Below, one piece after another: positions 29,282 to 59,589 of a stretch of DNA of 64,000 bases (position 1 is its first letter; the number at the start of each line of letters is the position of its first letter). Source of the stretch: Ensifer sp. LC163 (GTDB lineage Bacteria; Pseudomonadota; Alphaproteobacteria; Rhizobiales; Rhizobiaceae); the NCBI RefSeq assembly GCF_001695855.1, contig NZ_MBSS01000012.1:682001-746000 (forward strand), given 5' to 3'. The position numbers and the translations under genes are program-made. Below the pieces are notes generated by a model. That model was not told the origin of the DNA. It was given only the letters and a program-made list of their open reading frames with translations, and did no database searches.

Positions 29282-29438
29282 ATTCTCGCTAAATCCCCTT
29301 AGTTCCTTGATTTTCCAGTCGTGCCGGATATCGTTTTGGCATCATTGGCGACCTGATGCCCAGAACTGTAGCCCACAGGTGATGCCCACGCCGATCGAGC
29401 GTGACGGACAAGCCTCGGGGGTAGACAGGGCACTGATC

Positions 29439-38545: not shown

Positions 38546-39080
38546 CGATCCGACCTCCGGTGTCCGCGGCAATAATTGCCGTCCTGGCGTTCTGCACCGG
38601 ATCGCGCGGCCGCATTCGGCCACGCCGCCGCCCGTCAATGGCACCGGGCCTCGGGATCATCGCCAACACACGCTCGCGCGGCGAACGACGCGGCGGATGC
38701 GCGTCAGCCGACGAACCAGTCGAGGCAAACAGACTCAGATGCTCGTTCCGGGACCGACCGAGATCCCGGTTGCGGTTCCTCAGCCAGTCGAGCAGCAGGC
38801 GACATGCGGCGTTGCCGCCGTCGGCACCTGTACGCAACCGAAGCATCAGAGACTCTGGCACAAGGCCATCCAGCAGAGGACCTTGCCGGACGAAGGCGAG
38901 CGCCAGACCGATCAGAACGGCGGGATCGTCAGCAGAACTCGGATTCTGATGGACTCCAGAGAATACGAGGCAAGGCATATTGGCCAGCCTACTTTGGACG
39001 CAGGGCGACGCGGTGATCTCGGTCGTGATCGCTTCGCAATGGAAGCCGGCCACAGACGGGCTGCGGGTATCGATGGACAT
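38538..39080 (-). CDS. Hypothetical protein coupled to the AAA gene
   Basis: 180 residues from MSIDTRSPSVAGFHCEAITT, with GAGGAGAC upstream of the ATG. It overlaps the start of the AAA gene by 8 bp. The first 120 residues look globular (CLVFSGVHQNPSS, AVLIGLALAFVRQGPLL), the last 60 are Arg/Pro-rich and probably disordered. No known family. Confidence 0.6.
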   Translation of the reverse strand: MSIDTRSPSVAGFHCEAITTEITASPCVQSRLANMPCLVFSGVHQNPSSADDPAVLIGLALAFVRQGPLLDGLVPESLMLRLRTGADGGNAACRLLLDWLRNRNRDLGRSRNEHLSLFASTGSSADAHPPRRSPRERVLAMIPRPGAIDGRRRGRMRPRDPVQNARTAIIAADTGGRIDG

Positions 39081-42171: not shown

Positions 42172-43107
42172 ATGGCGAAGGCCATACTCACCACCAAGAT
42201 CGACCCGACGTACGATGACCTACCGGAGCAGCGGTATCACTTCCCGCGCACTTATCTACGTCAGGTCGAAGCCGCTCACCGGGACTGGATCGTCTATTAT
42301 GAGCCTAGGCGTCCGAGTGGCGATCTGATGAAATCCGGTGGCAAGCAGGCGTATTTCGCGACGGCGCGAATTGCCAACATCATCCCAGACCCATCGAAAC
42401 CCGATCACTACTACGCGCTAATCGAGGAGTTTCTGCCATTCGATCATGCCGTCCCGTTCAAGGAGACGGACCACTACTACGAAAGCGGCTTGCGCAAGGA
42501 AGACGGCTCGACGAACAAAGGCGCGTTCGGCCGCGCTGTCCGAAACATTCCCGACGCCGAATATGACCTTATCCTCGGCGCCGGCTTCGCGCATGTCCTC
42601 GGGAAGCGTGACCGCGAACGGCCTGCGCCGGATCCAGCCGAGGAAGCGCGCATCGGATTTGGCGACAACCCGCAGATGCCCTACGAGGCCGACAACATCG
42701 ATCGCCGCATCGTCACCCAGGTGCTTCAGCGTCCCTTCCGGGACCGCGCTTTCTCCGCAGCCATCAAGACGGCCTACCACGACACCTGCGCCGTCACCGG
42801 CCTCAAGCTCATCAACGGCGGCGGACGATCGGAAGTTCAGGCAGCGCACATTCGCCCCGTGGCGGACGGCGGCCCGGACAGCGTGCGAAATGGCATCGCA
42901 CTCTCCGGCACAGCGCATTGGATGTTCGACCGTGGGCTGATCTCGGTTGATGATGACTACAGCTTGATGATCGCAGGTGGCGGCGTACCCGATACCATCA
43001 CGCGGCTCATTAATCCGGAACGACGTTTGCTTGTGCCGACACGGGCTGACGAGCGGCCGCACTCGCAGTTCCTGCAATACCACCGGGAGCAAGTGTTCAA
43101 AGGGTGA
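42172..43107 (+). CDS. HNH endonuclease with PUA/EVE- or SRA-like N-terminal domain
   Basis: 311 residues. C-terminal HNH_2-type nuclease: Cys in TCAVTGLKLINGGGR, His in QAAHIRPVADGG, Asn in SVRNGIALSG, His in AHWMFDRGLI (residues about 205-265). The N-terminal 110 residues (RYHFPRTYLRQVEA, DWIVYYEPRR, QAYFATARIANII) have the aromatic-rich beta pattern of PUA-superfamily base readers such as EVE or SRA. Proteins with that combination cut DNA containing modified cytosines, so a type IV restriction role is likely. The gene is solitary and convergent with the defence operon. Confidence 0.72.
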   Translation: MAKAILTTKIDPTYDDLPEQRYHFPRTYLRQVEAAHRDWIVYYEPRRPSGDLMKSGGKQAYFATARIANIIPDPSKPDHYYALIEEFLPFDHAVPFKETDHYYESGLRKEDGSTNKGAFGRAVRNIPDAEYDLILGAGFAHVLGKRDRERPAPDPAEEARIGFGDNPQMPYEADNIDRRIVTQVLQRPFRDRAFSAAIKTAYHDTCAVTGLKLINGGGRSEVQAAHIRPVADGGPDSVRNGIALSGTAHWMFDRGLISVDDDYSLMIAGGGVPDTITRLINPERRLLVPTRADERPHSQFLQYHREQVFKG

Positions 43108-43306: not shown

Positions 43307-44056
43307 TTAATCCTTGTAGGAAAATGCGGCACGATGCCATGCCAATTTTTCTCGATGTTTTACGCTCAACGGAAGCGGCCTCTGCCAACGTAACAATGCC
43401 CTTGCATCGGGGCCAAGCGAAGGAGAAAAGAGCGGCTTCCCTGCATCATCGAAACTCGCGAGACCACTATCGAATGCAGCATCCCAGAGAGCCGAGAGAA
43501 GTAGGCCGTTGTGAACGTCAAGCCGCTCGGCATCGCTGTCGCAATCCTTCCAAGGCTTGATGTGGGAGGCTCGGAGAAGCGCTTCGTCGGCAATACCCGT
43601 CAAAGGGCAACGCCCCTGCCAGTATGCCATCAGCCGCTCGCGAAAGATGTTTTGCCCGACCCGTTGAACCACAAGTCGCTCCGCTTCGGTCGTTTTCCGA
43701 AGACCCTTCGTCTGGTGAAGGAACTCCTGAAGCGGCGCATCCGGAAGGCTGACAGCGAGCTCGTAAACTCGCGGCATCGCTGCATAAAGCATAACCAAGT
43801 CGGCGAACCGAAAGCGCGCGAGGCCCGGTCCCCCACCATTCGGTTCCAGACCGATCTCGGCGATGACGCCGGGGTGATCAATCGCGAGGACCCAGCCGCC
43901 GGTATTTTCGCGTGCGAGCCAGAGCGAGCCCTGCGCGGTTGTCGAGGTGTAGTGCCGCCAGCCGTTGAGTTCTCCATGTGACCGCCGGAAACCGTTCTGA
44001 AATGCTACCTTGTCGCATTCCTGACGGGAAACAAAGGACTGCGGCGACTCGATCAT
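43307..44056 (-). CDS. HNH endonuclease, last gene of the defence operon
   Basis: 249 residues. The HNH_2-type nuclease lies at residues 155-215: Cys in RCPLTGIADE, His in RASHIKPWKDC, Asn in DVHNGLLLSALWDAAFD. The N-terminal 130 residues contain a beta-rich part (LNGWRHYTSTTAQGSLWLAR, GWVLAIDHPGVIAEIG) of no family I recognise that may sense DNA or partner proteins. The ATG shares one base with the stop codon of the SMC-like gene (TGATG), so translation is coupled. Likely the effector nuclease of the operon. Confidence 0.78.
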   Translation of the reverse strand: MIESPQSFVSRQECDKVAFQNGFRRSHGELNGWRHYTSTTAQGSLWLARENTGGWVLAIDHPGVIAEIGLEPNGGGPGLARFRFADLVMLYAAMPRVYELAVSLPDAPLQEFLHQTKGLRKTTEAERLVVQRVGQNIFRERLMAYWQGRCPLTGIADEALLRASHIKPWKDCDSDAERLDVHNGLLLSALWDAAFDSGLASFDDAGKPLFSPSLGPDARALLRWQRPLPLSVKHREKLAWHRAAFSYKD

Positions 44057-46017
44057 CAGAAGTCCATCGCGAATAGCCGGGCTTCAGGAGGCGTGGATGA
44101 GAGTTGGAGCCGCAATGCTTGATGCTCAAGCGTGTGTTGCGAGGGCGCCGTTGTTGTCGTGACGATGTACTGGAATGGTGGCGGACTTCCCTCTTTCTCC
44201 AAACTGAGTGCGAAATCAAAAAGGTTGGCGTAGATGCCAGCGTCGAGGTCTGCTTCGCGTGGACTGTCGTGGATAAGAAGTGACGGCATGTCGGCCTTGC
44301 CATTCACAGAAAGGATCATGGCAGCGAGATCGAAGGCTACGATCTTGAACGACTCCACAGCCGCAGTTGAGAGTCCCGCGCCGCGTTCTAGTGAAATCTC
44401 CGGATGAAGACCGTTGCCATCGAGCTTCATTTTGCCAGAACAGCCCTTAGGCATCAGTGTAGCGACGAGTTGCCGAAAAAGTGTTGCTAGATCACCTATT
44501 GCTGCCGCTGCACGCTCGCGCTCCAACGCCGTCTTTTGCCGTGCCCCTTCTAGTCTTTTGTCGATGAGGGCTAGGCGTTGAGCTATCCCAACACGCTCCT
44601 TCAACTGAAGGTCAAACCAAGTTGCCTCTCTCACCAATTCGCTCGCTCGATTGACTGCCTTATTCGTGGCCGACATTTGATGTTCGAGCTGGGCAAATGA
44701 ATTATCGATATGGGCGATCTCTCGGTCTAGTCGAGCAATCTCTTGGTCGAGTTCGTTGATTTCTCCCGGCAAAGCGCGCTGCTGGCGCTCCAGCTCAGTT
44801 ACCTGTTGCTCGGTCCGCGCAATTCGCGACCGCACCTGGTCGAGGTCGCAACGCTCCAAAGAGATGCCACATCCGTTGGCCGTCACTTCATCTATGCTGA
44901 CATGGCAAATTGCACAGCGGACAATGACGCCGGTTTCCAGCCTCGCTTGCTCGGTTCCCTGTTCAGCGCGGGCGGCAGCAATCTGACTAGGAAGGCTATG
45001 TAACAGGGCCTTTCTCTCAGCCCTCTCGTCACTGCTTTTGTTCCGTTCGGACTGTAGGATTTGGCGTTTCCCGCGCAGCCCATCGCTTGGTCTCTGACCC
45101 TTGGCATGCTCGGTACCTATGGCCTTCGCAAGCTCTTCATTCGCCTTGTCGATGAGCTCCTTGCGGACCATTTCCTCGGTCGGATCACGGCCCTTGGGGA
45201 AGGAAAGACTTTCGCAGAGCTCAGAAAACCGTTGGCTTTGAAACCAGTCGAGATGACCGAGCTTCTCACGCAGATTATCCCGCTCACGCGTGAGTACTCT
45301 GGCCTCGACAGTGGCTTGAATTTCGTCAACGGAGAGCGCTCCGATCGCAAGGCGTACCACCGTCAGCTTTGCTTCAAGAGACAGCTCCTGTGCAGGTGAT
45401 CCCGAGCCGGATCGCTTGGAGCGCCAATCAAACACATCATCCAGCCGGCACTCTTGATCGCGGGTGAGCCATGCGAGCAGCACGTCCCAAACTTGTTCTG
45501 CCTTCAAGTTGTCGGGAACCTGATCTCGGTAACGGGCGCAAAACCGATCCGAAATCATCGGGGCGATGGTCGGAGGTACGGTGCCGACCAGAAGCTCGTC
45601 AAAAGTCTCCTCAATCCGCTCCGCGCGGGAGGCACGTGACGGCAGGTTCATGCCGATAGGACGGGTCACCACCCAGCATTCACCATCTATGATTATCTCC
45701 GCCCCGACAAAACCATTGGGCAACTTTTGCTGCATGAGCGGACGCTGCTCTTCATTGGAGAGGTGCCGCTCACCCAGGCAGTATCGGATCAGGCGGCAAA
45801 ACGTCGTCTTCCCACTGCCGTGAGGTGTTGCGCCGGTCCCGTTCGTCGATAGATCTGGCGACCAGACAATATTGACGCCGCGCCGAAGCGGAATGTCGCG
45901 CAGCAAGGTTCCGGGATCCTGCCAGAGCGCTAGGCGTCGAACCCACAAGCGTGGTCCTTGCTGACCTTCCGGCAAGGTGAACTCAATTTCGGCCGGCTGA
46001 AACAGATCAGGCTGCAA
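44056..46017 (-). CDS. SMC/Rad50-like ATPase with CxxC hook
   Basis: 653 residues. N-terminal P-loop TPHGSGKTTFCRLIRYC (about residues 64-80), long heptad-rich coiled coils on either side of a central RCAICH motif (about residue 367) placed like a Rad50 zinc hook, and C-terminal SLLIHDSPREADLD (about 575) as Walker B/D-loop, where Ser replaces the usual Glu. The C-terminus resembles DUF2326-type ABC ATPases. It overlaps the methylase stop by 11 bp and the HNH start by 1 bp. It probably bridges or scans DNA for the other components. Confidence 0.75.
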   Translation of the reverse strand: MQPDLFQPAEIEFTLPEGQQGPRLWVRRLALWQDPGTLLRDIPLRRGVNIVWSPDLSTNGTGATPHGSGKTTFCRLIRYCLGERHLSNEEQRPLMQQKLPNGFVGAEIIIDGECWVVTRPIGMNLPSRASRAERIEETFDELLVGTVPPTIAPMISDRFCARYRDQVPDNLKAEQVWDVLLAWLTRDQECRLDDVFDWRSKRSGSGSPAQELSLEAKLTVVRLAIGALSVDEIQATVEARVLTRERDNLREKLGHLDWFQSQRFSELCESLSFPKGRDPTEEMVRKELIDKANEELAKAIGTEHAKGQRPSDGLRGKRQILQSERNKSSDERAERKALLHSLPSQIAAARAEQGTEQARLETGVIVRCAICHVSIDEVTANGCGISLERCDLDQVRSRIARTEQQVTELERQQRALPGEINELDQEIARLDREIAHIDNSFAQLEHQMSATNKAVNRASELVREATWFDLQLKERVGIAQRLALIDKRLEGARQKTALERERAAAAIGDLATLFRQLVATLMPKGCSGKMKLDGNGLHPEISLERGAGLSTAAVESFKIVAFDLAAMILSVNGKADMPSLLIHDSPREADLDAGIYANLFDFALSLEKEGSPPPFQYIVTTTTAPSQHTLEHQALRLQLSSTPPEARLFAMDF

Positions 46018-49000
46018 GACGGCCCTCCCGGATGAATGGCAGGATGACGGCAGGAACCTGCGCTAACTCTTGATCGAGATTAATGCCTTCGAGCCGTGAC
46101 CAGGCGAAAAGTGCGCGACCGATAGCGGGATCATTCGGATTCAGGGTTGAGCGGTCGAGCCTCTTGCCTGCGCCCCAGCGGGTGCCGTCGGTCGAAACAT
46201 CCAGCACGGCTGATGAAACGAGGTCGCCGAATGCCGCGCCCCATGCAGCATTTGTTGGCGGAACGAGCTGGGTCACTCTAGTCGGGTGTGCCATGAGACG
46301 TTGCCACTCACGACCATCTGCTTCCGAAAGGAACCCATCAAGCAGCCCAGGCTGCAGACAGGCTAGAGCCGCTAGCCGTACGCGGCGAGCGTCAGAAGGC
46401 TCAGGCAGGATACCCACCAGGGCGCGAAGCTGGGCGCGCGCCCTGTCACGTTCATTGATACCCTGCGGCCAAGCCCAAACTGCATTCGAGAACTGTTTTA
46501 GCTGTGGAAGCTGAATCGGCTGCACAGCGGCAGATGTAGCATCGGCCATACCGAGAACGTCAAACGTCCCCTCATGCTCCATCCGGTCCCAAGCTTCGAG
46601 GACGAGGCGGCGGGTGCGGTATTCGCCGTGTTGGCGGATTTCCTTTTCCTTCAGAACGCGAAAAGTTTCCGAGGGGTAGTCGGGGCCCTTTACGTCGGCG
46701 GGATCCAGGATGTAGCGCAGTTCGTCGCGAGTCAGGCCGTAAGCGCGGGCGAAGAAGGCGTCGAGCTCGGCGCGGAGGAGCGCGCGGCGATCCTCGTTCC
46801 AAGCGAAGGGCGGACCGTCATAGCCCAGATCGCGGGCGAAGGGGGTGAGGCCGTGCGAGGTGTAGGTGAGTTCCAGCGCTCTAGGTGCAACAAACGCCAG
46901 ACGATGCGCCGTGTAGAAGCTCGGTGGCAGAACTGGAAGTTGGAATAGGAACTGGAACGTAAGATTCGTGCCGCCCAATTTTTGTCTTGCAATAAAATCA
47001 AGAACTATAGCTGAGAGATTTGCTACGAAGCCAGCAACTAATTCGGGCTCTTGCTGTGGCAACATAAGTGGAAGCGAGTCCCCCGCTGCGCCGCGTGGTA
47101 TTAAGCTTGAAATCAGTGTTCGCTCATCTGTGGCACGCGCAATCTTCCGCCAGCCGATTAACCAATTCTTCTCCCATCCCTTGTTGGCAAGCCTACGCAC
47201 TACTTCGGCCTCTGGGACCCAATATCGGGGAAGGGGTTCGTAGGATGGAGTCGATTTCTGCTCTTTCGACAGGTCTACCGTACTGGCGCCGTCCAATTCG
47301 TACGTTGACCATCGATGGTCATACTGGTGGATCATCTTTGCTTCGTAAAGAGGAACGTAGACCGGGTATTTACTTGATTTAACAGTGGATGCGCCACTGT
47401 CGTCTCCAGTGATGCTAGAGAACGACAATGTGGATTCACCTTCATGCTTGTCCGCGATCCACTTCGCCATATCAAGCTCAAAGCCGTCGTCATTTAATTC
47501 TTTTGCTGTTCGGAACCACTCTGAATCTTCCGCCATGTGCCAAATTCGCGTATAGAATTTGGCATTCCAAGTGTTTCCATCTACGCCTTCACCTTCGTTT
47601 AGTAAAACAGGTGCTTGCTGGTATAGTTTTGCCGTAAGTTCAGCGTCCCTTTGCGACCGAAAAACCGGGGCATTTCGGGTGTTTGGATTAATGGTCTCAA
47701 TCTGCCTCGTCGACAATGTAAAGCTGCGTTCAGAGTCATAGAGCCCTGCAGGAGACCGAAGAAAGAAGGCAAAACGTGCCTGTTTAACGTCACGGCCAAG
47801 TGTCAAAAGGCTGAATTTGAAGCTCCTGTGTACCGCTGGAAAGATTGGGACGGAGTTTTCAAAGTCAATAATATCGGAAAGACGTCGTTCAGCTACTATA
47901 TTAGCGAAAAATGGAGCTGTAGTAACATCGGTAGCGATGCCAGTGGGAACGATCACTCCTGCACGGCCCTTGGGACCGGGAAGGTTTGCGAAGAGTTCTG
48001 CGAACAACTGATAAGTGTTTACATCCCCAGTACCGGTAAGTGCAAAGCGCCCACCTTCTTCGCCTGGCACCCGAACAAACTCGCTCGTCGCTTCGGCCTC
48101 GCGCTTCGCCGCCGCGAAGGCTTCGAATAGATTGCGATCCGCGCTGCCCGGCGCGGCCTTCTCTAGCGCCTTGATGAGCCGGTCGCGTGCAGCTTTGTTG
48201 GGGGCATTGGCGATCTCAGGCGAACGGGCACCAAAGAACTCCTGCTCTTGCAGCTTGATCCGCTCCCAAGGCGGGTTGCCCAGCACCACATCAAAACCAC
48301 CCCGCTGCATCACATCGGGGAATTCCAGCGGCCAGTGGAAGGCATGGGCGGCGCGGGCCGCCTTCGGCGCATCGGTCATCGCCTGCCGCATCTTGCCCTG
48401 ATTGAGGGTCATCCACAGTTCCTCGGTCGTCGGCACAGTGCGCGCCGAGGCGCCCGCCGGTGCGCCGCCGACCTTTGGCAGGAGGAAGGCCGAGACGTAG
48501 AGGTTCGCCGCCGCCTTGGCGCGGACAAAGGTCTGCTCTTTGCGCAGTTCCTTAAACCGTTCAGCCTTGGCACCGATCTGCTCCACGGTATCCTCGGGCA
48601 AATCGCGGAAGCCCGAGAAATCCAGCGCCAGCGGCTTCATCGCCGGCAGCGATGCCAGTCCCGTTCCGAAATCAAACCCACCCTGACCGGATGTCGCGGC
48701 GCGGTTGGCCTGCAGGTAGTAGCGCGCAGTATCTTTGTCGTCGCCAGTCAGCGGCTTGTACGCAGCGTCAGGGATGCCGTCCTGGAGCACCTTCAGGTCG
48801 AAGACGCCTAGCAAAGCGTCGCCACAGCGGATCTGCGCGTCGAAGAAGCCCAGCGGAAGGCCGGGGTCCACCGTTTCGATCCAGAGCGCGACCTTGGTCA
48901 GTTCCACCGCCATCGGGTTGCGATCGACCCCGTGGATGCAGCAGCGCGCCACATCACGCAGGGCATGGCGGAAATCGGCGAGCGAGGGCGTGCCCTCGGC

Positions 49001-50536
49001 CCGGATGCGGGCTAGCCGCGTAGCTATGCGGCGGGCGGCTGCCAGGAGGAAGTGGCCCGAGCCACAGGCGGGGTCGATGACCGAGAGCTTCATGAGCGCC
49101 TTGGCGGGATCCTCCGCCTCCGCCTCAGTCATGTCGAGAACCGGATCAAGCGCGGTATCGAGCAGCGCCTGAACGAGGCTGTCCGGCGTGTAGTATGAGC
49201 CGGTGGTTTTGCGTTGGTTGCCCTTCTGCTCGGCCGCCTCGGAGGCGAATACGAGCGTCTTGCCGTCATCGCCCAGTTGCGGCTGGAGCTCGAGGAGGGA
49301 TTCGTAGACCGAGCCCAATTCCTCAGTCTCCATCGCGCGCCAGTTTACGGGGACCATACCATTTTTGTCCGCCAGCCAAGAGAGACGGTAGAGCGCCTCC
49401 ATAAAGGCGCGGTTGCGCAGCCGAGCGGTTTCGAGATGAGGTAGCCGGTCTTCGGCAAACAGGCCGCCGAGAGCTGGAAGAGCGAGGGCCGGCTGGCCAC
49501 TCGTCAGGGCGCGGAAGACGACCTTTACGCCCTCGTAGCGGTCATGGTGTTTGTCCCAGGTAGCAGCGCGATAGCATTGCTTGCGCAGCGACTGCAGCGA
49601 ATAGCCATCGGCGTAAAGACTGCGGGCCTCGGGCTTTGCCTTGTCCGGGTGGAGCAGGTTGCGATCTTCGGCCACCATGAGGAAGATCAGGCGGTAGACG
49701 AGGCGCAGGAGTTCGTTGAACCATTCGGTGAGGTTCACTTCTCCGGAGTGCAGTTTGGCCGCAAGATCGGGATTGGCCTCGAGGAAGCCGGAGCCCAGAA
49801 GCTTCAGGGCGAGTTGGACTTGATCTGCCAAGCGATCACGCGCGGCCTCCCCTTCCTTCGAACCCGCGTCGCGCCAGCGTTCCAGAGCGCAATCCGTTGC
49901 GGGGGCGTCTGCCGCGCCAAAGCGTGAGCGGTGGATCAGAAGCCAAAGTGCGGCGAACGAAGCTATGTCTTCGTTCGTAAACATCTGGGCGAGATCTGCT
50001 TCGATGTAAGCCGGCCTTGTCAGCGAGGCATTGTCGCGCATCAGGCGCAACTGCGTGCCGTTGGTCACGATGCCCCAGAGGGCATCGTCCCTGTCGTTCA
50101 GATAATCCTGAAGGGCAAAGGCCGGCGAGCGAGACCGATCCGTCGAGAGCGTCGGGCTGCGGCGATCAAGTTGCTCATGAGGCGGGACAACCACGATGGG
50201 CACTCGGCCAGATGCCATCAGAGCGATAGGTGCCGGCACGGCAGTAAGGTCGGTGTAGTCAAAGGTCTCCTTGAAGAAACCGGAGATGAAGCGAACAGTC
50301 GCGGCTGGCGACGGATGCTCGATTTTGATGAAGGCGTCGAAATGCGATTGCCCGACACGAAAGGCCGTCGCGATTTCCTCGCGGATCTGGAGCCCCTTGC
50401 GAACCGAATAGTCCTCGGGAGACTGCTCCGGAGCCTGGCGCTGATCGATTTTGGCAATCATCGCCGGAGCGATCAAATTGCCTTCCAGGCTCAGCGATGG
50501 CCATGCCGACATATCGATGATGGTTTTGCGCGACAT
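46007..50536 (-). CDS. Eco57I-type adenine-specific DNA methylase (DrmMI/PglX-like)
   Basis: 1509 residues. The AdoMet motif I VIDPACGSGHFLLAAARRI is near residue 488 and the N6-adenine catalytic motif IV LGNPPWERIKL near residue 752. A large N-terminal region (residues 1-450) and a C-terminal target-recognition-like half follow the plan of Eco57I-class type IIG enzymes and of DISARM DrmMI or BREX PglX. I could not identify a nuclease motif in the N-terminus. It starts 2 bp after the SNF2 helicase stop. Likely marks self DNA or licenses the system. Confidence 0.85.
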   Translation of the reverse strand: MSRKTIIDMSAWPSLSLEGNLIAPAMIAKIDQRQAPEQSPEDYSVRKGLQIREEIATAFRVGQSHFDAFIKIEHPSPAATVRFISGFFKETFDYTDLTAVPAPIALMASGRVPIVVVPPHEQLDRRSPTLSTDRSRSPAFALQDYLNDRDDALWGIVTNGTQLRLMRDNASLTRPAYIEADLAQMFTNEDIASFAALWLLIHRSRFGAADAPATDCALERWRDAGSKEGEAARDRLADQVQLALKLLGSGFLEANPDLAAKLHSGEVNLTEWFNELLRLVYRLIFLMVAEDRNLLHPDKAKPEARSLYADGYSLQSLRKQCYRAATWDKHHDRYEGVKVVFRALTSGQPALALPALGGLFAEDRLPHLETARLRNRAFMEALYRLSWLADKNGMVPVNWRAMETEELGSVYESLLELQPQLGDDGKTLVFASEAAEQKGNQRKTTGSYYTPDSLVQALLDTALDPVLDMTEAEAEDPAKALMKLSVIDPACGSGHFLLAAARRIATRLARIRAEGTPSLADFRHALRDVARCCIHGVDRNPMAVELTKVALWIETVDPGLPLGFFDAQIRCGDALLGVFDLKVLQDGIPDAAYKPLTGDDKDTARYYLQANRAATSGQGGFDFGTGLASLPAMKPLALDFSGFRDLPEDTVEQIGAKAERFKELRKEQTFVRAKAAANLYVSAFLLPKVGGAPAGASARTVPTTEELWMTLNQGKMRQAMTDAPKAARAAHAFHWPLEFPDVMQRGGFDVVLGNPPWERIKLQEQEFFGARSPEIANAPNKAARDRLIKALEKAAPGSADRNLFEAFAAAKREAEATSEFVRVPGEEGGRFALTGTGDVNTYQLFAELFANLPGPKGRAGVIVPTGIATDVTTAPFFANIVAERRLSDIIDFENSVPIFPAVHRSFKFSLLTLGRDVKQARFAFFLRSPAGLYDSERSFTLSTRQIETINPNTRNAPVFRSQRDAELTAKLYQQAPVLLNEGEGVDGNTWNAKFYTRIWHMAEDSEWFRTAKELNDDGFELDMAKWIADKHEGESTLSFSSITGDDSGASTVKSSKYPVYVPLYEAKMIHQYDHRWSTYELDGASTVDLSKEQKSTPSYEPLPRYWVPEAEVVRRLANKGWEKNWLIGWRKIARATDERTLISSLIPRGAAGDSLPLMLPQQEPELVAGFVANLSAIVLDFIARQKLGGTNLTFQFLFQLPVLPPSFYTAHRLAFVAPRALELTYTSHGLTPFARDLGYDGPPFAWNEDRRALLRAELDAFFARAYGLTRDELRYILDPADVKGPDYPSETFRVLKEKEIRQHGEYRTRRLVLEAWDRMEHEGTFDVLGMADATSAAVQPIQLPQLKQFSNAVWAWPQGINERDRARAQLRALVGILPEPSDARRVRLAALACLQPGLLDGFLSEADGREWQRLMAHPTRVTQLVPPTNAAWGAAFGDLVSSAVLDVSTDGTRWGAGKRLDRSTLNPNDPAIGRALFAWSRLEGINLDQELAQVPAVILPFIREGRLAA

Positions 50537-50538
50537 GA

Positions 50539-53310
50539 TTACACCTCCCCCGGAACAAGCACGAAGAGGCCAATGACATCAGGGGAAATGATCGGCTCAA
50601 CACTGACTCGAGACGCCGAACCAGCGGCGGCACGAAGACGCGCGTGATCTTCAACCAGCTCTGCGGCGCGCTTTCGCACAAATTCGGCAATTGGACCGGT
50701 CAACAGCTCTGGGAGGGCGGTGCGTGCCGCGTTGATCATGCGATCACGGGCTACAGGCGCGAGGTCGGCGGTCGCGGGTGAGGCAAGAAGCTCACGCGCC
50801 TTGCTGCCAGAAGCGATCACAGAGTAGCTATCGAATGCAACAAGCGCGGCCTCCTCCGCTAGCAGCAGGCGCTCGCGCCTTGCATGAACCGTGAGCTTGT
50901 AGCGAATGCGCAGGAGCGCGATGCGCGTCATCTGCGAGACGGCGGCACTTGGCCAAGCGCCGACACGACCGATGCCCAAGTCAGGAAGCGCTTCAATGTC
51001 AAGCGAGGCCTCCAGGAGACTCTCCGCCAGTGACGACGTCAGCGGGTGTGTTCTTGTCAGAAAGGAAGTCCCCGAAGGCGCCGGCTCCTGCGTTGCCAGT
51101 TTGAGAGATCCCTTGAGACCGTGCTGCTCCAGCTTCTCTTTGAGACTTGGTTGAAGAGCATGCACGTGTGCGAGATGCAGAGATTTTTTCTGTTCAAGCG
51201 GAACCCCGAACCGTGACATGGCCCGTTCAATGAATTCCAGCGTTTCCGCAGGTGATCCAAGCAGAGATTTCACCTTCTCCCATTCTGGGGCCACCTCATT
51301 CGGCTTCATCGCGTTCTGTGCAAATCGAGCACGCGACCGCTTTTCGTTGTCGCTGGCATCGCGCCAACGGGATTCCATCACCTGCATGCCATTACTTAGT
51401 TGCAGGTCGAGGGTTAGCTGCTGCTGGCTTCCACCGCCACGGCGAAGCATCATCGCAGCCATCAGTGCATCGGTAACCGGCCCACGCTCATCCGGAAGAG
51501 GAACGGTTACGCCAGTCGCCTCGCGGATTTCCGCGGCCTTGCGAAGAATTACTTCGAGCACGGCGCCATCGATCGCGCTATCAGGGGAGAACATCATGAT
51601 GGAGCGCACAAGCTCGGCGGGTTGTCCGAAGCGATCCACTCGGCCTTCGCGCTGTTGATGGCGTGTAGGATTCCAGGACAAATCGTAGTGGATCACGCTG
51701 TCAAACAACTGTTGAAGGTTGATACCCTCCGAAAGGCAGTCTGTCGCGACGAGAATGCGCTGGTCATTGGCGTCACCATCTCCGGCCGCCATTTCGGCAA
51801 CGCGATCGCGGCGTTCGTCCGGTGTCAGTTCCCCCGTGACCGCTTGCACGTTCAGTTTAGGGAATGCCTTTCGAAGCCCTTCCTTCACATGTTCCGCCGT
51901 CGCGAGGTAACGGCAAAACACGACAGGGTTCGCTCCTTCCTTGATCAAAGGTTTGAGGGCCTTGACAAGGGCGTTCAGCTTGGGGTCATCCGCTGACAGA
52001 AGCACGCTGGCCCTATCGAGCAGACCTTGGAGGGTGGGGTCGGTGGAGAACACCGTGTTCGGCTCAATATCGACGGCGTCTTCATCGTCCCCATCCTCGT
52101 CATAAATCTGCGGCTCCAGACGGTCGTCTTCGTTTGACGCTCTATTCCGCAACGCGCTCAGTGCCGCGGCGGGAGACGATCCGACACAACGCATGAGTGC
52201 CAGAGTCCCCCAGAAGGCAAGACGGCGATCCTTCTGCGCGTCGCCCGCGCGAGATACCACTGAGAAGCAATAATCGAGCACTTCTTCTTGGAACCCCCGA
52301 TGTGCGTCGTTCATGCGATATGAGTATTCGGTGGTCTCGTGCTTGGGGAAGGACCGGTTTTCGTCCCATGCCCCCTCCACGAGGTCGACGCGCCGTCGCT
52401 GAACGAAATGTCTGGCAAGGCGCTCTCGGTATTTTGCGTCATCAAAGTTCACGGTACCGAACTCCCTGTCGATCAACGACAGGAGCCTCGCGAAAGCTTC
52501 TTCGTCCCCGGAATGCGGAGTTGCTGTCAGCAGGATCAGCCGGCGTTCAGGATCGCGTGAAAGCCCTTGCAGCAAGTCGAAGCGCTGCTGCCTCCCTTTA
52601 TGCGTCCCAACGCAGGCATGGGCTTCGTCCACGATGACGAAGTCCGGGCACGCCCTAGCGAAACCATCGCGACGCTTTTCAGCTTTGATATAATCGAGAC
52701 TGACAACCGTGAAAGGGTAAGCATCGAACAGGGTTTGCGCCAAAGGCAGATTTCGCTCCAGACGAGCGGCCGTCCCGGAGGTGACTGCAACGGCGTCGAT
52801 CCCGAACCTATCCTTTAGTTCGACGAGCCATTGATCCACGAGATGAGGGGGGCAAAGCACCGAAAAAGCATCGACCTCACCACGGTCCATGAGTTCACGA
52901 AGGATTAGACCAGCTTCAATTGTTTTGCCGATGCCAACGTCGTCGGCGATCAGGAGGCGTGGCACCTGAAGGCGTAGGGCCATCAGAAGCGGGACAAGTT
53001 GGTATGTGCGCGGCTCGAATGCGAGCTGAGCTGCGGACCGAAACGGTCCCGCGCCTCGGCGGAGAGTCAGCCGCAGTGCATCCGCAAGGAGGGCCGCTTT
53101 CGACTGTACTGTTTTGCGAGCATCGTCAGGCAGGTCAAAGCGGGCGGCTTCAATAGGTGCAAGCTCGAGGTCCGGTGCAAGGACGACAATGTCGTTTTCA
53201 TTGCCCGAGAGAGGACGCAGGGCGAGCAGGCCATCTCCGGGTGTCGGCAAGGTCACCCATTCGCGGCCGCGTGCTCTGACGAGATCCCCAGGTGTGAAAT
53301 TCACAGTCAT
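50539..53310 (-). CDS. SNF2-family helicase, DrmD-like
   Basis: 923 residues from MTVNFTPGDLVRARGREWVT; this ATG lies 1 bp after the upstream helicase stop, and the longer frame lies inside that gene. SF2 motifs are complete: IADDVGIGKTIEAGL (about 121-135), VIVDEAHAC (226), LLTATPHSGD, VFCRYLATAEHVKEGL, GINLQQLFDSVIHYDLSWNP and RHQQREGRVDRFGQ. The length and C-terminal extension of about 300 residues fit DrmD of class 1 DISARM. A GDDEDAVDIEPN acidic insert lies between the two RecA lobes. Confidence 0.85.
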   Translation of the reverse strand: MTVNFTPGDLVRARGREWVTLPTPGDGLLALRPLSGNENDIVVLAPDLELAPIEAARFDLPDDARKTVQSKAALLADALRLTLRRGAGPFRSAAQLAFEPRTYQLVPLLMALRLQVPRLLIADDVGIGKTIEAGLILRELMDRGEVDAFSVLCPPHLVDQWLVELKDRFGIDAVAVTSGTAARLERNLPLAQTLFDAYPFTVVSLDYIKAEKRRDGFARACPDFVIVDEAHACVGTHKGRQQRFDLLQGLSRDPERRLILLTATPHSGDEEAFARLLSLIDREFGTVNFDDAKYRERLARHFVQRRRVDLVEGAWDENRSFPKHETTEYSYRMNDAHRGFQEEVLDYCFSVVSRAGDAQKDRRLAFWGTLALMRCVGSSPAAALSALRNRASNEDDRLEPQIYDEDGDDEDAVDIEPNTVFSTDPTLQGLLDRASVLLSADDPKLNALVKALKPLIKEGANPVVFCRYLATAEHVKEGLRKAFPKLNVQAVTGELTPDERRDRVAEMAAGDGDANDQRILVATDCLSEGINLQQLFDSVIHYDLSWNPTRHQQREGRVDRFGQPAELVRSIMMFSPDSAIDGAVLEVILRKAAEIREATGVTVPLPDERGPVTDALMAAMMLRRGGGSQQQLTLDLQLSNGMQVMESRWRDASDNEKRSRARFAQNAMKPNEVAPEWEKVKSLLGSPAETLEFIERAMSRFGVPLEQKKSLHLAHVHALQPSLKEKLEQHGLKGSLKLATQEPAPSGTSFLTRTHPLTSSLAESLLEASLDIEALPDLGIGRVGAWPSAAVSQMTRIALLRIRYKLTVHARRERLLLAEEAALVAFDSYSVIASGSKARELLASPATADLAPVARDRMINAARTALPELLTGPIAEFVRKRAAELVEDHARLRAAAGSASRVSVEPIISPDVIGLFVLVPGEV

Positions 53311-53311
53311 A

Positions 53312-56300
53312 TCAACCTTCGAAATTCTTGATGAAACTATCCGGCAATCCTTCGGACGGCGCCGCGGGCAAGCCGAACACAACCCAGCCCTTCTTCATCG
53401 CATCCGCTTCGGCTTCGGCTGTCACTTTTTCGGTCGTCGCCGCAACCGCAAATGCACGCCACGCGAACTCAAAATCAATGCCGCCGAAACGCGCAGGCAT
53501 CGTGTCGATTTGCGGAATACCAGCAGCTCCAAATGCCTCAAGCCAAGGTGAAACGACAGCGCCGGGTGCTAACGTTGCCGCAAGTGAAATCTTTCCTCGG
53601 CTGAGATTAATCAGAAACTGCGTCACTTCTGGGCTTGAGCGATTGATCAGCTCGTGGTCTGGCTGGTTGAAGTAGGAGAGAAGGCAGCGATAACAGCCAC
53701 GCACGCAGCTCCCATCCTCTTTCTCTCTAAGCAAATCTGCATCCCCCGCTGCTATCGCCGCATCCACATTTTCGAAGTGCATTAAGTTCAGCGCGGTTTT
53801 GGCAACCTCATTAATTGCTTTTCCGTCGTCTATCAGGCGCGTGAGCACGCCGGCTCCGCCTTCCGTTGCCTCATAGGTGAGAATCGCTCTTCGGTTGTCT
53901 CTTGCGGGCAGCGGCTCACCCAGGATTTCGCCTTCCTCCAGTTGGAAGACCACTTCGATCCCGCGAAGCAATGCATGCTGGACCGTGGCGATCGTTTCCG
54001 GCTCATATTGTTCCGGCTTTTCAAAGCGAAACAGAAGCGCATTCTTTCTGTCGCGAACGATCGGCACAATGCGGACCGGCTTGATGACGTCGGGCGGGAC
54101 ATCCGTGTCGCTATCCTCGTCGTCGGACTTTGCCCAGTAGCCCGATCTAGGGTCGATGTGGAAGCCAAAGACGGTCTGCTCCTTGCGGCGTTTCAAACCC
54201 TTGTTCAGACGACTTATTTCGGCGCTATTGGCGTATTGAAGGGCTAGCAGCGAAGTCTCTTCGCAGACGAACTTGGCGTTGGTCACCTGGACCTGGCCGT
54301 CCTTTTTCGGCCACGAGAACACCGTTTGGATGTCAAAGCCCTGCCTGACTCGTTCCTCATCGTTTGCCGTGATGCGCTCAGTCGGTGCCGCTTCGACATT
54401 GTCGATGCGCAGCGTCTTCTTGATGGGAACTTCTCCTGCCATGTGATTGTTGCACCCATGGCAGCGCTCGACTTCACCTTCATGGGATGCGCCACAGTTG
54501 GAGCAAATGTAGATGTCCTTGGTCGCCAATTCCGAGCCGTCGACTTGGCGTACCTCCGGGGGTAGTTTGGCCTTCATGACGCGGTAGGCACGGCCTTCAT
54601 GGTAAATCAGACTGCGCGGTCCGAATTCGGAAATTGCCAGGAAACGTGCTCTGGAGAGAAATGAGCCATTTTTCCCTTCTCCGGGAACAAATGCATACAG
54701 CGGCAGGCGCGGGAAGTTATAGCCGGGCAAGAAGCCTTCAGTTGCCAGATACCGATACGAATAGAAATCGGATCCATAGGACGCCTTGCCCTGTTCAAGG
54801 ATTGCGATCTGATCCTGAGCTTGCATTTGCGCGGCCTTGATCTTGCGTCGGTCCGCTCCCGATAGGCCAGTAATCTCGGAGCGCTTATTCGCCTCAGCCA
54901 ACTGCGTTCTGGCGGAACTGTACAGCTCACGCCAACGATCAAATGCCCGATCAAACTCTTTCGGCGCGTTCATAGCGGTGTGGAGAACGAATTCGTCCGG
55001 GTCTTCCATCCAGATCGGGGCCTTGCCACCATCAGAAGCCAAGATCTGTTTCAGGACACGTGCCATCGGACCGCGCGCCTGCGAGACAAGAGCCGGCTTG
55101 GAAATGACCGCCAGAACCTCCTCCTTCAGCGGGAATTTCTCGCCGTCAAGGTCAAGGATTTCAGGAATATCCGGGGAGAGCGCCAGTTTTGCTTCCGCCA
55201 GCCACACTGCATGAAGGTGCGACCGGACCAGCTCTTCATTCGTGATGTCAAGTGCAGGCGGCCGAACGACACCAGCGACCATATCGTTGCGCCGCTCGAA
55301 GAAATACTGGTCATGCGGTGATCCCGAAGCGCAGTATGTCACAACGACGGCGGCCTGCCCAGAACGACCGGCTCGACCAGCACGCTGCGCGTAATTCGCA
55401 GGCGTGGGCGGGACGTTTCGCAGATACACGGCGTTCAATGCGGAAATGTCGACGCCGAGTTCCATTGTCGGAGAGCAGAATAGCGCTGGTAGGAACCGAT
55501 CGGTCTCGCCGGTTGCTCGAATTTCGGTGCGGTACTCTGATGTTGCAAGGTGTTCCACGTCGTCCTGTTCGAACCGGAACCGCCATTCACGCCATTCGCG
55601 CTGTTTCTGCGAAACTTGGGCCGTGTGTTCGCGACCCTCCAGACCCCAGTAGGAACTACTCCCATCGCTGAGGTCGTAAGCAATCGCGGTGTAAAGGTGA
55701 TGGAAGTATCGGTTACCGCGTTGACTTTCATCAGAAAGCGCAGGCCCCGGGATGAGCCGGACCGCCGATGGCGATAGGCGCCAGCCTAGCACGTCACTGT
55801 CGAGTTCGACGGGCACAAGCAGCCCTTCATCGCTGAGAAAGGAAAGCATCCCCTCCATAAATTCGTAGTACTCATCCTTATTGAGTTTCGTGCCCAGGAC
55901 GGACTTCCGATTCACTATCCTAGCGATTCTGGAATTGGGGCCGGCCCTAAGAAGCGTTTGTTCTTCACGCAACGTGACTACGTTCTTGCTTCCCGCACGC
56001 AGGACCAGCGAAGAACGTGCTCTTGGGTTCTCTTTTTGGTCGATTGCCCAAGGAGCTTGAAGAAGGTTCCGGGATTTCTGTGCCACGCCATCAAGGACAG
56101 CAAGGTCCAAGGCCTCTGTCTGCACAGCCAGGCCTTCGAGCATAGCGGACAAAATCGTCTTGAGTATTGCTTGCCGCTGATCGTTGCCAAGATCGCCCAG
56201 CGCAGGGTGGATGGTCATAACGCGCTCGCGATCTTGCGCGAGTTCCTCGAGGCCGAGGAAATTCACATCGATCAGGTTAAGGACAGACAGGCTGGGGTTG

Positions 56301-58489
56301 GTAAAGCGCCATCCGCGACGCAGGTCGGTCCAGACACGATGGGCGAGCACTTTGGCGAGCGAACGCTGTGCGTCTTCACGAATAATGGCGCCAGCATTCG
56401 CGTCCAGCAGCCAGTGCTGGCGTGCCTCCTTGTTGGCAGCGGTGAAACCAAGCGCTTTCACCACCTGGAGGCCAAACTCGTCTTCTGCAAGGCCTCCTGA
56501 GTCAGCAGACATCACCGCGCGAAGGATAGCACCGCGCAACAAGCTTACGAATAGGAAGTCGTTGAAATGGCCAGACTGCAATGCTGCGTCCTGACGATTG
56601 TCTGTGAAACCCAGCAGTTTGCGCTTCGTCTCGGGCACGCCGCTGCCCGGCTTGTTCATCCATTCCAAGGCACTGGCTACGAGCAGTGTTGTCGCAGAGC
56701 TCCGCCCTTCACCGGAGAGCCCGGCAAGCTTGCTGCGTTCACGCATCCCTTGTGTGGGTTCATCGTGACAACAGAGGCAGAACGCGAACTTCCCGGGGAT
56801 GAACCAGAAGTCATTCCCGCCCGCTCCGTGACGGCCATCTGCACCTACCATGTAGGATACCGGCATACGCTTCTTGCGATAGCCTCTCAACCGTTCGATG
56901 CCATTCTTCTCTTCCCGCCAGCTCTCGGGGTAACCCTCAAGCTCGCCGGTGAACTGAAAGTCAATATCACCTGGGTCTACCGGGCAGAGATAGCCGGCAA
57001 TCTCGTCTTCCTCACTATCGAGTGGTGTGTCGTCGATGCTTCGGGGCAAAAAACGCAAATCCCCTTCATCATCGACCTTCGTCACGACATGGTATTCTTG
57101 GCCACAGCTTCTGCAGAATCGTGTCGGATAGAGGCGGTTGCCTGGTGCCGCTGGATCCTCGAGCTGTCCATCGAGAAGGATTCGTCGTGGTCTGGCCGCG
57201 AGTGTCGTGAAGACCTCGCCTGCGCCGGAGATAAATCGATGGAGCTTAAAGGCGAGAAACGCGCTATCCTTTGTGCCGCCACGCTCATGCTCAGGCAGGC
57301 TCACCCGGGTCAGGAACCGCTCGAGATAGTCGCGGCAAGTTTCAGCATCGACCCCACCGGCCAGCGACAGCTTCGCAACGGCCTCTTCAAACGGGATCGG
57401 CTTTTTCCTACGAAGTTCAAGTCCGTCGTCCAATCCAAGTTCCAACTCCACCCAAACAGAGAGTGGATGGCGTTTCAAGGTCTCGTCATCGAGTGTCTCT
57501 GGGAGAGACTGCGTAAGCACCTTGCTCAAGGACCCAACGACGTGGTCCGTCGTCAACGAGTCATCTGTTGCTCGCTGTAAGGATTCGTCGATGACCGCGT
57601 CCGGGCCAATTTCCGAGCCGAATAGCCGTGACGCAACCTTTGCGACAGCAATAGCGCGGCTCTCGTCGGTACCCTCAGATGCCATCGTTGCCGAGGTTCC
57701 GATGCAGATCGGTTCTTTGTCAGGAGAGCACCTGTCACGCAAGCGCCGAACGAGGACGGCGACATCGGCCCCTTGGCGTCCGCGGTAGGTGTGCAATTCG
57801 TCAAGAATGATGAACTCGAGGCCGGAGGCATTGGCAATTACCTGCGAATCCAATTCGTCCTGCCGCGTCAGCAACAGTTCAGCCATCATATAGTTCGTCA
57901 GCAGAATGTCTGGCGGGTTGGCGGCAATGCGCTCACGTTCTTCACGGCTTTCCTGTCCGGTGTAGCGCTTTACCACCGGCTTGAGATCGTCGGGCAAACC
58001 AGAACCAGCGATGAACTTGTCGATTTCCTTCATCTGGCTGTTTGCCAAAGCGTTCATGGGATAAACGATGATCGCCGTTGTTCGCCGGGGTTTGCCCCCG
58101 CGACGAGCGCGGATAATGGCGTCGACAACCGGCACAAAGAAACACAAAGATTTTCCCGAACCAGTGCCAGTTGTGACGACATAGCTCTTGCCCTGCTTCG
58201 CCTTCGCAATTGCTTCGGCCTGGTGTCGATGGAAGCGAAGTGGTGTCTTTCCGAAACGGAAGACCTTTCCCGTGCCCTCATCAAGGTCGCCCGTGGCTAC
58301 GAGTTCATCGGCCGTCGGTCCGGCCATGAAGCGCGGGTTAAGTGACAGGAGGGCGTCAGGCCAAAATCTTCCGGCGTCGTACTGGGCGTCGATCTCGGAC
58401 TTCAGGTCGGGAGCCCGAATTGCGCTGAATGAACGCGAGAAATGCTCATATGCGCCAATCAATTGGTGATCAAATTCAAACGCTTTCAT
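53312..58489 (-). CDS. Giant DEAD/DEAH helicase with DUF1998-like C-terminus (DrmA-like)
   Basis: 1725 residues from MKAFEFDHQLIGAYEHFSRS. N-terminal RecA lobe: TTGTGSGKSLCFFVP (about 106-120), DELH box (230-233), IGTSATMASEG. Second lobe: SPTMELGVDISALNAVYLRN and QRAGRAGRSGQ. Zinc-binding CSNCG and CHGC follow at about residue 1330, and the DUF1998-like end carries EATEGGAGVL and CVRGCYRCLLSYFNQPDH (about 1595-1615). DISARM DrmA is shorter and is paired with a separate DUF1998 protein, DrmB, so this may combine both. First gene of the five-gene operon. Confidence 0.85.
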   Translation of the reverse strand: MKAFEFDHQLIGAYEHFSRSFSAIRAPDLKSEIDAQYDAGRFWPDALLSLNPRFMAGPTADELVATGDLDEGTGKVFRFGKTPLRFHRHQAEAIAKAKQGKSYVVTTGTGSGKSLCFFVPVVDAIIRARRGGKPRRTTAIIVYPMNALANSQMKEIDKFIAGSGLPDDLKPVVKRYTGQESREERERIAANPPDILLTNYMMAELLLTRQDELDSQVIANASGLEFIILDELHTYRGRQGADVAVLVRRLRDRCSPDKEPICIGTSATMASEGTDESRAIAVAKVASRLFGSEIGPDAVIDESLQRATDDSLTTDHVVGSLSKVLTQSLPETLDDETLKRHPLSVWVELELGLDDGLELRRKKPIPFEEAVAKLSLAGGVDAETCRDYLERFLTRVSLPEHERGGTKDSAFLAFKLHRFISGAGEVFTTLAARPRRILLDGQLEDPAAPGNRLYPTRFCRSCGQEYHVVTKVDDEGDLRFLPRSIDDTPLDSEEDEIAGYLCPVDPGDIDFQFTGELEGYPESWREEKNGIERLRGYRKKRMPVSYMVGADGRHGAGGNDFWFIPGKFAFCLCCHDEPTQGMRERSKLAGLSGEGRSSATTLLVASALEWMNKPGSGVPETKRKLLGFTDNRQDAALQSGHFNDFLFVSLLRGAILRAVMSADSGGLAEDEFGLQVVKALGFTAANKEARQHWLLDANAGAIIREDAQRSLAKVLAHRVWTDLRRGWRFTNPSLSVLNLIDVNFLGLEELAQDRERVMTIHPALGDLGNDQRQAILKTILSAMLEGLAVQTEALDLAVLDGVAQKSRNLLQAPWAIDQKENPRARSSLVLRAGSKNVVTLREEQTLLRAGPNSRIARIVNRKSVLGTKLNKDEYYEFMEGMLSFLSDEGLLVPVELDSDVLGWRLSPSAVRLIPGPALSDESQRGNRYFHHLYTAIAYDLSDGSSSYWGLEGREHTAQVSQKQREWREWRFRFEQDDVEHLATSEYRTEIRATGETDRFLPALFCSPTMELGVDISALNAVYLRNVPPTPANYAQRAGRAGRSGQAAVVVTYCASGSPHDQYFFERRNDMVAGVVRPPALDITNEELVRSHLHAVWLAEAKLALSPDIPEILDLDGEKFPLKEEVLAVISKPALVSQARGPMARVLKQILASDGGKAPIWMEDPDEFVLHTAMNAPKEFDRAFDRWRELYSSARTQLAEANKRSEITGLSGADRRKIKAAQMQAQDQIAILEQGKASYGSDFYSYRYLATEGFLPGYNFPRLPLYAFVPGEGKNGSFLSRARFLAISEFGPRSLIYHEGRAYRVMKAKLPPEVRQVDGSELATKDIYICSNCGASHEGEVERCHGCNNHMAGEVPIKKTLRIDNVEAAPTERITANDEERVRQGFDIQTVFSWPKKDGQVQVTNAKFVCEETSLLALQYANSAEISRLNKGLKRRKEQTVFGFHIDPRSGYWAKSDDEDSDTDVPPDVIKPVRIVPIVRDRKNALLFRFEKPEQYEPETIATVQHALLRGIEVVFQLEEGEILGEPLPARDNRRAILTYEATEGGAGVLTRLIDDGKAINEVAKTALNLMHFENVDAAIAAGDADLLREKEDGSCVRGCYRCLLSYFNQPDHELINRSSPEVTQFLINLSRGKISLAATLAPGAVVSPWLEAFGAAGIPQIDTMPARFGGIDFEFAWRAFAVAATTEKVTAEAEADAMKKGWVVFGLPAAPSEGLPDSFIKNFEG

Positions 58490-58904: not shown

Positions 58905-59585
58905 TTATAGAAGCTGTCGTTGGGAGACCGCTCTGGAGCTCCTCCTTGAAGCCAACTCGTCTTTCTTTAGTCGCTCTGCGGAGGTTTTCTCGCTGTTATC
59001 GAGCCGAACCTGTCTTACCAAAGTAGCAATCGGTTCCCCAACCAGTACGAAATCGGGAATGTCGAGTGGAGGAAGCTCCATCAAACGATCCGGTTCGGCT
59101 CGGACAATCTCGCGAAGCTCCATCAATAACCGACCCAGTACGTTCCGGCCGGAAAAATGACTGCCATCAGCGACCTTCGCGCCCCAATAGTCATCTTTAC
59201 TCGAACTCTCGACAATCGGCCGGTCTCCTGTGGCCAGCAAAAGCGCAGAAAATTTGCTCCAGTTATGCAGCAGCTTGGCGCGTAAACACCAGCGCATAAT
59301 TTTAACGCGCACCTCATCCCAATCGGGTCGGGAGTCGTCGCGATATGGTTTGGAACGCATTTTCGCGGTCATCGGACTCGTCTCCTCGATAATCATCCGC
59401 TGTACGTGCGGCAGATGTGGGAAGCGGCACGCCTGATACAGGGCCTCGGACGTGCGAAGATGATATCGCAGAACTCTAATGGGATAGCCCGGCGCCATGT
59501 TCGAAAGGCCGCCGAAATCCTCCGACGTCTTGCGGAAGCTGACGACGTGATCGCGGGTATATTCTCGAAAATCGGCTTTGCTCAT
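58905..59585 (-). CDS. NADAR-domain protein (YbiA/DUF1768-like)
   Basis: 226 residues. The NADAR fold covers residues 15-165: FGGLSNMAPGYPI, TSEALYQACRF, ETSPMTAKMRSKPY, DWDEVRVKIMRWCLRAKL, LLATGDRPIVESSSKDDYWG and NVLGRLLMELREI all match the family. NADAR enzymes remove ADP-ribose from guanine and act as antitoxins of DarT1-type toxins; related YbiA enzymes hydrolyse riboflavin-pathway intermediates. No DarT gene is next to it. A C-terminal tail of about 50 residues is charged. It starts 4 bp after the PRTase-like gene stop, so the two form one unit. Confidence 0.85.
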   Translation of the reverse strand: MSKADFREYTRDHVVSFRKTSEDFGGLSNMAPGYPIRVLRYHLRTSEALYQACRFPHLPHVQRMIIEETSPMTAKMRSKPYRDDSRPDWDEVRVKIMRWCLRAKLLHNWSKFSALLLATGDRPIVESSSKDDYWGAKVADGSHFSGRNVLGRLLMELREIVRAEPDRLMELPPLDIPDFVLVGEPIATLVRQVRLDNSEKTSAERLKKDELASRRSSRAVSQRQLL

Positions 59586-59589
59586 GGCT

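Follow-up and report, generated by a model that had tools for sequence, protein, structure and literature searches.

To which known system does a large five-gene operon of Ensifer sp. LC163 belong, and which of its proteins would cut DNA? The operon lies on the minus strand, at positions 43307-58489 of a 64,000-nucleotide stretch (contig NZ_MBSS01000012.1, positions 682,001 to 746,000) that we analyzed as a whole and call the window. We find that it is a conserved variant of ARMADA Type I, the class described by Bell et al. 2025 (preprint PMC12458937), and it is probably anti-phage, as judged from sequence. The reading that we favor on balance, with some reserve, is that a separate HNH nuclease replaced the nuclease built into the first helicase of this class, and that a Lamassu-like ATPase was docked onto the system as an optional sensor or gate. 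Defense, docking, gating and the identity of the cutting protein are all inferred. The features of the operon are as follows.

53312..58489, minus strand: gene 1, YprA-family (DruE/DrmAB-like) helicase that also carries DUF1998/MZB (Pfam, PADLOC, PDB)
53312..53584, minus strand: C-terminal domain of YprA, a degenerate nuclease of the Vsr/DUF559 type (catalytic DG..H loop gone)
50539..53310, minus strand: gene 2, SNF2/RapA/BrxHII-type helicase (Pfam, PADLOC)
46007..50536, minus strand: gene 3, PglX-like adenine DNA methyltransferase of the Eco57I family with an NPPW motif (profile matches)
46757..48196, minus strand: hypervariable region of the methylase, residues ~781-1260, presumed target recognition (identity drop against relatives)
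46007..46519, minus strand: C-terminal extension of the methylase, ~170 residues (co-occurrence with the ATPase gene)
44056..46017, minus strand: gene 4, Rad50/LmuB-like coiled-coil ATPase, DUF2326 (PADLOC, AlphaFold2 model, Foldseek)
44869..44916, minus strand: zinc-hook-like CxxC...C at the coiled-coil tip, C368, C371 and C383 (sequence, model)
43307..44056, minus strand: gene 5, HNH_2 endonuclease with intact motif (Pfam HNH_2, 5.3e-11)

An earlier note, made from the sequence alone, had described five coupled minus-strand genes, and this was borne out. All five open reading frames (ORFs) are present in the window and abut tightly, with junctions of TGA-T-ATG (+1 bp) between genes 1 and 2, TAA-TC-ATG (+2 bp) between genes 2 and 3, a TTG start that overlaps the 3' end of gene 3 (-11 bp) between genes 3 and 4, and TGATG (-1 bp) between genes 4 and 5. 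The start that the earlier note gave for gene 1, at 58489, is an ATG; the mechanically called ORF begins at TTG 58501, which may also serve as the start. Given that the closest upstream ORF (58905-59585) is ~0.4 kb away and that a convergent plus-strand gene (42172-43107) lies 0.2 kb downstream, the five genes appear, by their arrangement, to form a single unit. Chance does not account for the grouping, since the same order was found in all eight close relatives from named genomes, in which YprA is visible only from about residue 780, where the stretches end. The ATPases of these close relatives are 80-95% identical to that of the window; L006 (L-numbers denote loci) has a stop within the ATPase and L009 a stop within YprA. 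Eight plasmid records carry a full-length ATPase relative at 32-35.5% identity; five of them have all five genes in order, two are without the HNH gene and one is without the core.

The domain assignments of the earlier note also hold by Pfam, with the DUF2326 match of the ATPase below the cut-off (25 against 28.7 bits). Gene 1 combines DEAD, Helicase_C and MZB/DUF1998 within one protein, its best PADLOC match is DruE (2.6e-78; DrmA, 7.3e-16), and its nearest PDB chains are 9tu7, 9wae and 6znp (YprA). Gene 2 has SNF2-rel_dom and Helicase_C, with PADLOC matches to DpdE (6.5e-192) and DrmD (1.7e-76). Gene 3 is an Eco57I/N6_Mtase protein by Pfam, PglX-like with an NPPW motif, and among the 25 of its 44 PADLOC matches that were listed, DrmMI (4.6e-76) is ahead of the type IIG enzymes (1e-38); its profile matched nothing among PDB sequences at 0.001. 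PADLOC 2.0 splits the five proteins among Druantia, Dpd, DISARM, Lamassu and type II restriction labels. As in the window, ARMADA Type I is described in PMC12458937 with the order YprA, BrxHII/RapA and PglX-like methylase, with DUF1998 fused to the helicase, and with a YprA nearer to DruE than to DrmA. A difference lies in the C-terminus of YprA, where an active Vsr nuclease is predicted in that paper and the domain of the window is degenerate. Our YprA and methylase trees comprise the relatives found here, and the assignment to ARMADA Type I is one by gene content and order. ARMADA Type II, which blocks phages in Escherichia coli according to PMC12458937, shares homologous helicases and an NPPW methylase with the operon, but its gene order is different and its ArmD (RelE-GajB) is not in the operon. 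The main text of that paper contains neither SMC nor Rad50, and its single mention of HNH is in a reference; our literature searches of open-access texts, supplements aside, found no paper that names this gene set.

Other known systems fit less well. DISARM class 1 has related helicases and a DrmMI-like methylase, but its DrmA and DrmB are separate genes according to PMC12458937, whereas the window has one ORF, and its DrmC is a phospholipase D (PLD) nuclease, which is not so here; Pfam found no PLD domain in the five genes or the ten neighboring ORFs. DISARM proper was rejected because of the fused DrmAB, the missing PLD nuclease and the score of gene 2, which reaches 283.9 bits against the curated NCBIfam DrmD cut-off of 610. 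The earlier note had proposed a DISARM relative with DrmA and DrmB in one protein; the relationship and the fusion stand, but the gene set fits ARMADA Type I instead. Druantia shares DruE as the best match of the YprA helicase, and was rejected since no other Druantia gene was seen among the ten neighbors (E 1e-5). The suggestion that the operon might belong to Hma found little support: no Hma family is among all 23 PADLOC families matched by the ATPase, and HmaA is the seventh match of the SNF2 helicase. With the methylase comparison covering 25 of 44 matches, Hma was rejected as weak.

If the operon is of this class, what has become of its built-in nuclease? In intact Vsr domains (16 of 20 aligned) E13, D43-F44, D56-G57, H60 and D69 are invariant, and Pfam labels both submitted intact domains DUF559. 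In the branch of the window, the alignment shows the D-G..H catalytic stretch to be absent from the YprA C-terminus, and the degenerate domain has no Pfam match. In profile comparisons, the degenerate main group matched the intact domain with E 3.3e-5 (prob 72%), and the bridging sequences of L035, L047 and L074 did so with E 1.6e-15 (prob 98.5%). Together, the bridging sequences and the weaker main-group match indicate the same domain gone degenerate; the C-terminal domain of the window's YprA looks like a Vsr-type nuclease that lost its catalytic loop and is dead.

Does the HNH gene stand where this loop is lost? We surveyed 55 loci with YprA, 48 of which are assessable for both Vsr and HNH. 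The sample is non-random, with L002-L018 and L040-L048 found via the ATPase, L031-L039 via the methylase, and L065-L081 and L089-L105 via YprA. Dropped before the counts were L006 (contig shared with L068), L073 (truncated YprA) and L014, L018, L043, L045, L048 and L072 (unusable YprA C-terminus); HNH is not assessable in L041, L089, L067, L038, L070, L071 and L105, which have less than 1.5 kb beyond the last core gene. L091 was counted as intact without HNH, though its stretch showed no further core gene. For L074, the presence of HNH and a methylase end at 1296 were assigned manually on the basis of a second piece of the locus, L087. The YprA profile itself is found in 7 of 385 genomes of the class, 14 of 398 of the phylum and 7 of 297 of the order, the window's own genome included.

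The Vsr domain is intact in 20 of the 55 loci and not in 35, and because an intact Vsr is missing from so large a share of ARMADA-I-like loci, the operon was treated as a variant of the class. By gene content, 19 loci, among them that of the window and some in which genes are broken, combine HNH and ATPase with a lost Vsr, 11 have HNH without a DUF2326 ATPase, and 6 have the ATPase with an intact Vsr; neither gene was seen in 14 loci with intact and 5 with lost Vsr, and seven loci of the last three groups are not assessable for HNH. Among the 48 assessable loci, 30 have lost Vsr and carry HNH, 15 are intact without HNH, and none is intact with HNH. Of 19 assessable loci added once the idea had been formulated (duplicate L068 excluded), 17 conform to the pattern; in Hydrogenimonas L074, the lost motif was seen first and the HNH gene later (family model, 1e-47). 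Since the HNH model derives from HNH proteins of the window and of loci collected before the idea was set, minus L014 and L048, we also checked the intact loci with Pfam. For all 15 of them, no HNH_2 was found near the operon in the sequence record or genome concerned; 2 of the 15 have one elsewhere, in one case on separate contigs of an assembly that is fragmented. A general HNH profile matched 10 of the 15 records, beside the operon only in Planktothrix. The earlier note had also supposed that the ATPase and HNH take the place of DrmC; the idea of a swapped nuclease is kept, but the nuclease replaced seems to be the YprA-fused Vsr domain, and in the 11 loci mentioned above the HNH gene stands without the ATPase.

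The same counts bear on another explanation, in which the YprA C-terminal domain was repurposed, for example as a docking site for HNH, and HNH adds to a cut made elsewhere. The domain is retained as a folded unit, with a block of predicted local distance difference test (pLDDT) scores of 83-94 over residues 51-130 of its model, and the last 90 residues of YprA are 78% (L004, Paracoccus denitrificans DSM 413) and 74% (L008) identical to those of the window; neither would be required of a remnant without function. However, the lack of any locus with both an intact Vsr and HNH among the 48 suits replacement no less well, and we regard repurposing as improbable.

Several observations weigh against replacement of the nuclease in this way. 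The ARMADA systems assayed in the text of PMC12458937 are of Type II. The fold search of the degenerate-domain model against PDB was not significant (best E 0.92, PvuRTs1I). Of the 30 HNH proteins, 24 conform to a strict version of the motif, and the remaining six rest on the family model, one of them also on Pfam. In three of the 48 assessable loci Vsr is lost and HNH is absent: L034, where an IS21 element is inserted behind the methylase; L076, with EVE-AAA and DUF2357 genes in place of HNH; and L078, in which the Vsr domain is degenerate only in part. The last two are also the two later-fetched loci that disagree. In Planktothrix (L080) Vsr is intact although a small HNH gene from a different Pfam family lies just upstream, and L036 has McrBC genes together with an intact Vsr, which indicates that gain of a nuclease is not always paired with Vsr loss. 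A DISARM-like association with McrBC was reported earlier by the same group as the ARMADA paper (PMC11090510), and an association of that type is seen in L036 and L076. Finally, on the tree the exchange amounts to three or four changes, with two independent pairs of which about one is concordant, and a single group of 33 of the 35 loci with lost Vsr (without L076 and L078) was not rejected (approximately unbiased test, p 0.198). A single ancestral exchange therefore explains most of the pattern, and the Vsr-to-HNH exchange may be one historical event. Repeated swaps are not claimed, since the changes are too few for significance.

The HNH protein itself has the HNH_2 motif ASHIKPW...NGLLLSALWDAAFD, intact, and its three PADLOC matches do not include LmuA. 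Its HNH domain matches the HNH endonuclease of PDB entry 6yex (3.3e-17), which we take to be a modification-dependent enzyme. This match would suit restriction-modification of the type IIG or BREX-like kind, where cutting would fall to the methylase or the helicases and HNH would target phages with modified bases; the secondary PADLOC match of the methylase to type IIG enzymes, behind DrmMI, points the same way. We hold this to be very improbable, given that Pfam finds no nuclease domain in the methylase and that HNH presence accompanies loss of the Vsr motif. Next to the operon, in convergent orientation, a further HNH_2 protein is encoded (42172-43107, plus strand); L002 and L008 have a similar one in the corresponding position.

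What, then, is the ATPase for? Its best PADLOC family is LmuB (1.2e-18). In an AlphaFold2 model (pLDDT 82) the head is divided by a long coiled coil, whose turn at residues 363-391 holds the hook cysteines; a search for the CxxC pattern found none in the divergent ATPases of L041-L047. The best Foldseek match is 9a6c (YYDD-YYDB, 6.7e-14), followed among others by a Lamassu LmuACB chain (4e-13) and a Mre11-Rad50-Nbs1 chain (3.3e-10), all with modest TM-scores of 0.21-0.57. A weak PADLOC match to DruC (E 0.0027) lies in the coiled coil, and of the 11 matches of the profile among PDB sequences, nearly all concern the coiled-coil part and unrelated proteins. The residue following the Walker B aspartate is usually glutamate, and here a conserved HDSP motif places a serine directly after it. 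Given also the Glu-to-Gln change reported for Lamassu LmuB in a review (PMC10586767), the protein may hydrolyze ATP slowly or not at all. It is rare: matches were found at E 1e-20 in 2 of 385 genomes of Alphaproteobacteria and at E 1e-10 in 8 of 299 genomes of Pseudomonadota, the window's own included in both, and at E 1e-5 in none of 50,697 phage records. Lamassu/ABC-3C (LmuACB) resembles this part of the operon in that a nuclease gene adjoins the gene for a small Rad50-like ATPase that bears a cysteine hook, but the usual LmuC is without a counterpart among the five genes, and here the ATPase goes with an extension of the methylase.

Residues 1-780 of the methylase are 71-98% identical to those of seven close relatives, whereas mean identity per 60 residues falls to 20-61% over residues ~781-1260 against the same seven. 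This is as would be expected if a recognition region, which we presume it to be, were swapped to alter the protected motif. In contrast to this variable region, identity is 65-99% for the SNF2 helicase (four close relatives) and for the ATPase and the HNH protein (seven each). The C-terminal extension, which has no Pfam match, was scored with a cut at residue 1400, chosen after methylase ends had been seen at 1288-1303 or 1426-1466. The ATPase gene is present exactly where this tail is present, in 49 of 49 loci. On IQ-TREE quick trees, for which the program flagged long branches, the ATPase has at least nine changes on the YprA tree and nine on the methylase tree, and the tail changes with it in nine of nine independent pairs on both (49 and 45 loci, respectively; p 0.0039 each). 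Eight of eight later assessable loci (L074, L090, L092 and L100-L104) agree with the pairing. The methylase tail may be a docking site for the ATPase, or an equivalent partner of it; alternatively, tail and ATPase could be transferred as one block, from which an equal pattern would be expected. The place between methylase and HNH is also taken by an AAA_15/AAA_21 protein in L039 and L087 and by a UvrD-like protein in L033. As a separate observation, an ARMADA-like operon of Acidithiobacillus caldus has a Phd/VapC toxin-antitoxin pair between helicase and methylase (L035:11343-11977).

The resemblance to Lamassu, for which HNH effectors have been reported (PMC10586767), raises the question of whether the operon is plain ARMADA Type I restriction that merely shares a transcript with a separate, Lamassu-like abortive-infection unit of ATPase and HNH. 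L014, which carries ATPase and HNH and no core, would fit such a unit. However, the two genes are found apart, HNH without the ATPase in 11 loci and the ATPase without HNH in five of the six ATPase loci with intact Vsr (the sixth, L041, is not assessable), so that they are not a fixed pair, and a fixed two-gene cassette was rejected because each occurs without the other. Moreover, ATPase presence follows a methylase domain. The methylase is directly upstream in 22 of 26 loci found via the ATPase (window excluded), and of the other four, L048 has fragments, L018 and L043 have no methylase, and L014 has a remnant of the methylase tail directly upstream of the ATPase, so that it looks like a decayed operon. 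We therefore consider a separate unit unlikely.

Under the reading that we prefer, an ARMADA Type I variant with an exchanged nuclease and a docked ATPase, the system might work as follows. The PglX-like methylase would mark host DNA via its variable recognition region, and both helicases would load onto unmarked or replicating phage DNA and translocate. In standard ARMADA the YprA-fused Vsr-type nuclease would then cut; in the window variant, with a YprA domain without the catalytic loop, the HNH_2 nuclease from the end of the operon would do so. The Rad50/LmuB-like ATPase would dock on the methylase through its C-terminal extension, sense the state of the DNA (ends, hairpins or stalled forks) and restrain or release the nuclease, as proposed for Lamassu.

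The operon probably lies within an integrative element of ~54 kb that extends beyond the window end. A tRNA-Gln with an adjoining phage-type integrase gene is found at 29208-31529, and an exact 21-bp copy of the tRNA 3' end lies ~54 kb downstream (G000:C12:765293-765315); a third, less similar copy is at C12:499179 (2 mismatches in 23). Past the window, the same putative element encodes a 1700-residue protein joining a DEAD and a UvrD helicase (L107:13614-18716, minus strand), near three consecutive phage-type integrases (L107:9613-12765). Within the window, a NADAR protein adjoins a phosphoribosyltransferase-like (PRTase-CE) protein (58905-60576, minus strand) that exceeds the NCBI DS32_1 anti-phage cut-off (395 against 250 bits). 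Two other minus-strand features are an overlapping AAA ATPase and M41-like peptidase pair resembling a split FtsH (35766-38644), whose ATPase has a PADLOC match to IetA, and a UvrD/GajB-like helicase with a topoisomerase-type zinc ribbon (61036-62907).

Both the nuclease exchange and the coupling of methylase tail and ATPase appear to be new. We suggest that HNH and DUF2326 genes be listed as components in ARMADA annotation rules; the methylase extension and the Rad50-like ATPase would form an interface that is directly testable. More tentatively, and with rather less assurance than for the operon itself, the class as a whole may have swapped its executioner, a trans-acting HNH for a dead fused nuclease, and may use the Lamassu-type ATPase as a plug-in with the methylase tail as its socket, gained and lost many times. 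If this is true, the system would follow a hybrid ARMADA/Lamassu logic, in which methylation serves as the self-mark and sensing of DNA structure as a second check before cutting, and a large multi-gene immune system could swap its effector while retaining its sensing core.

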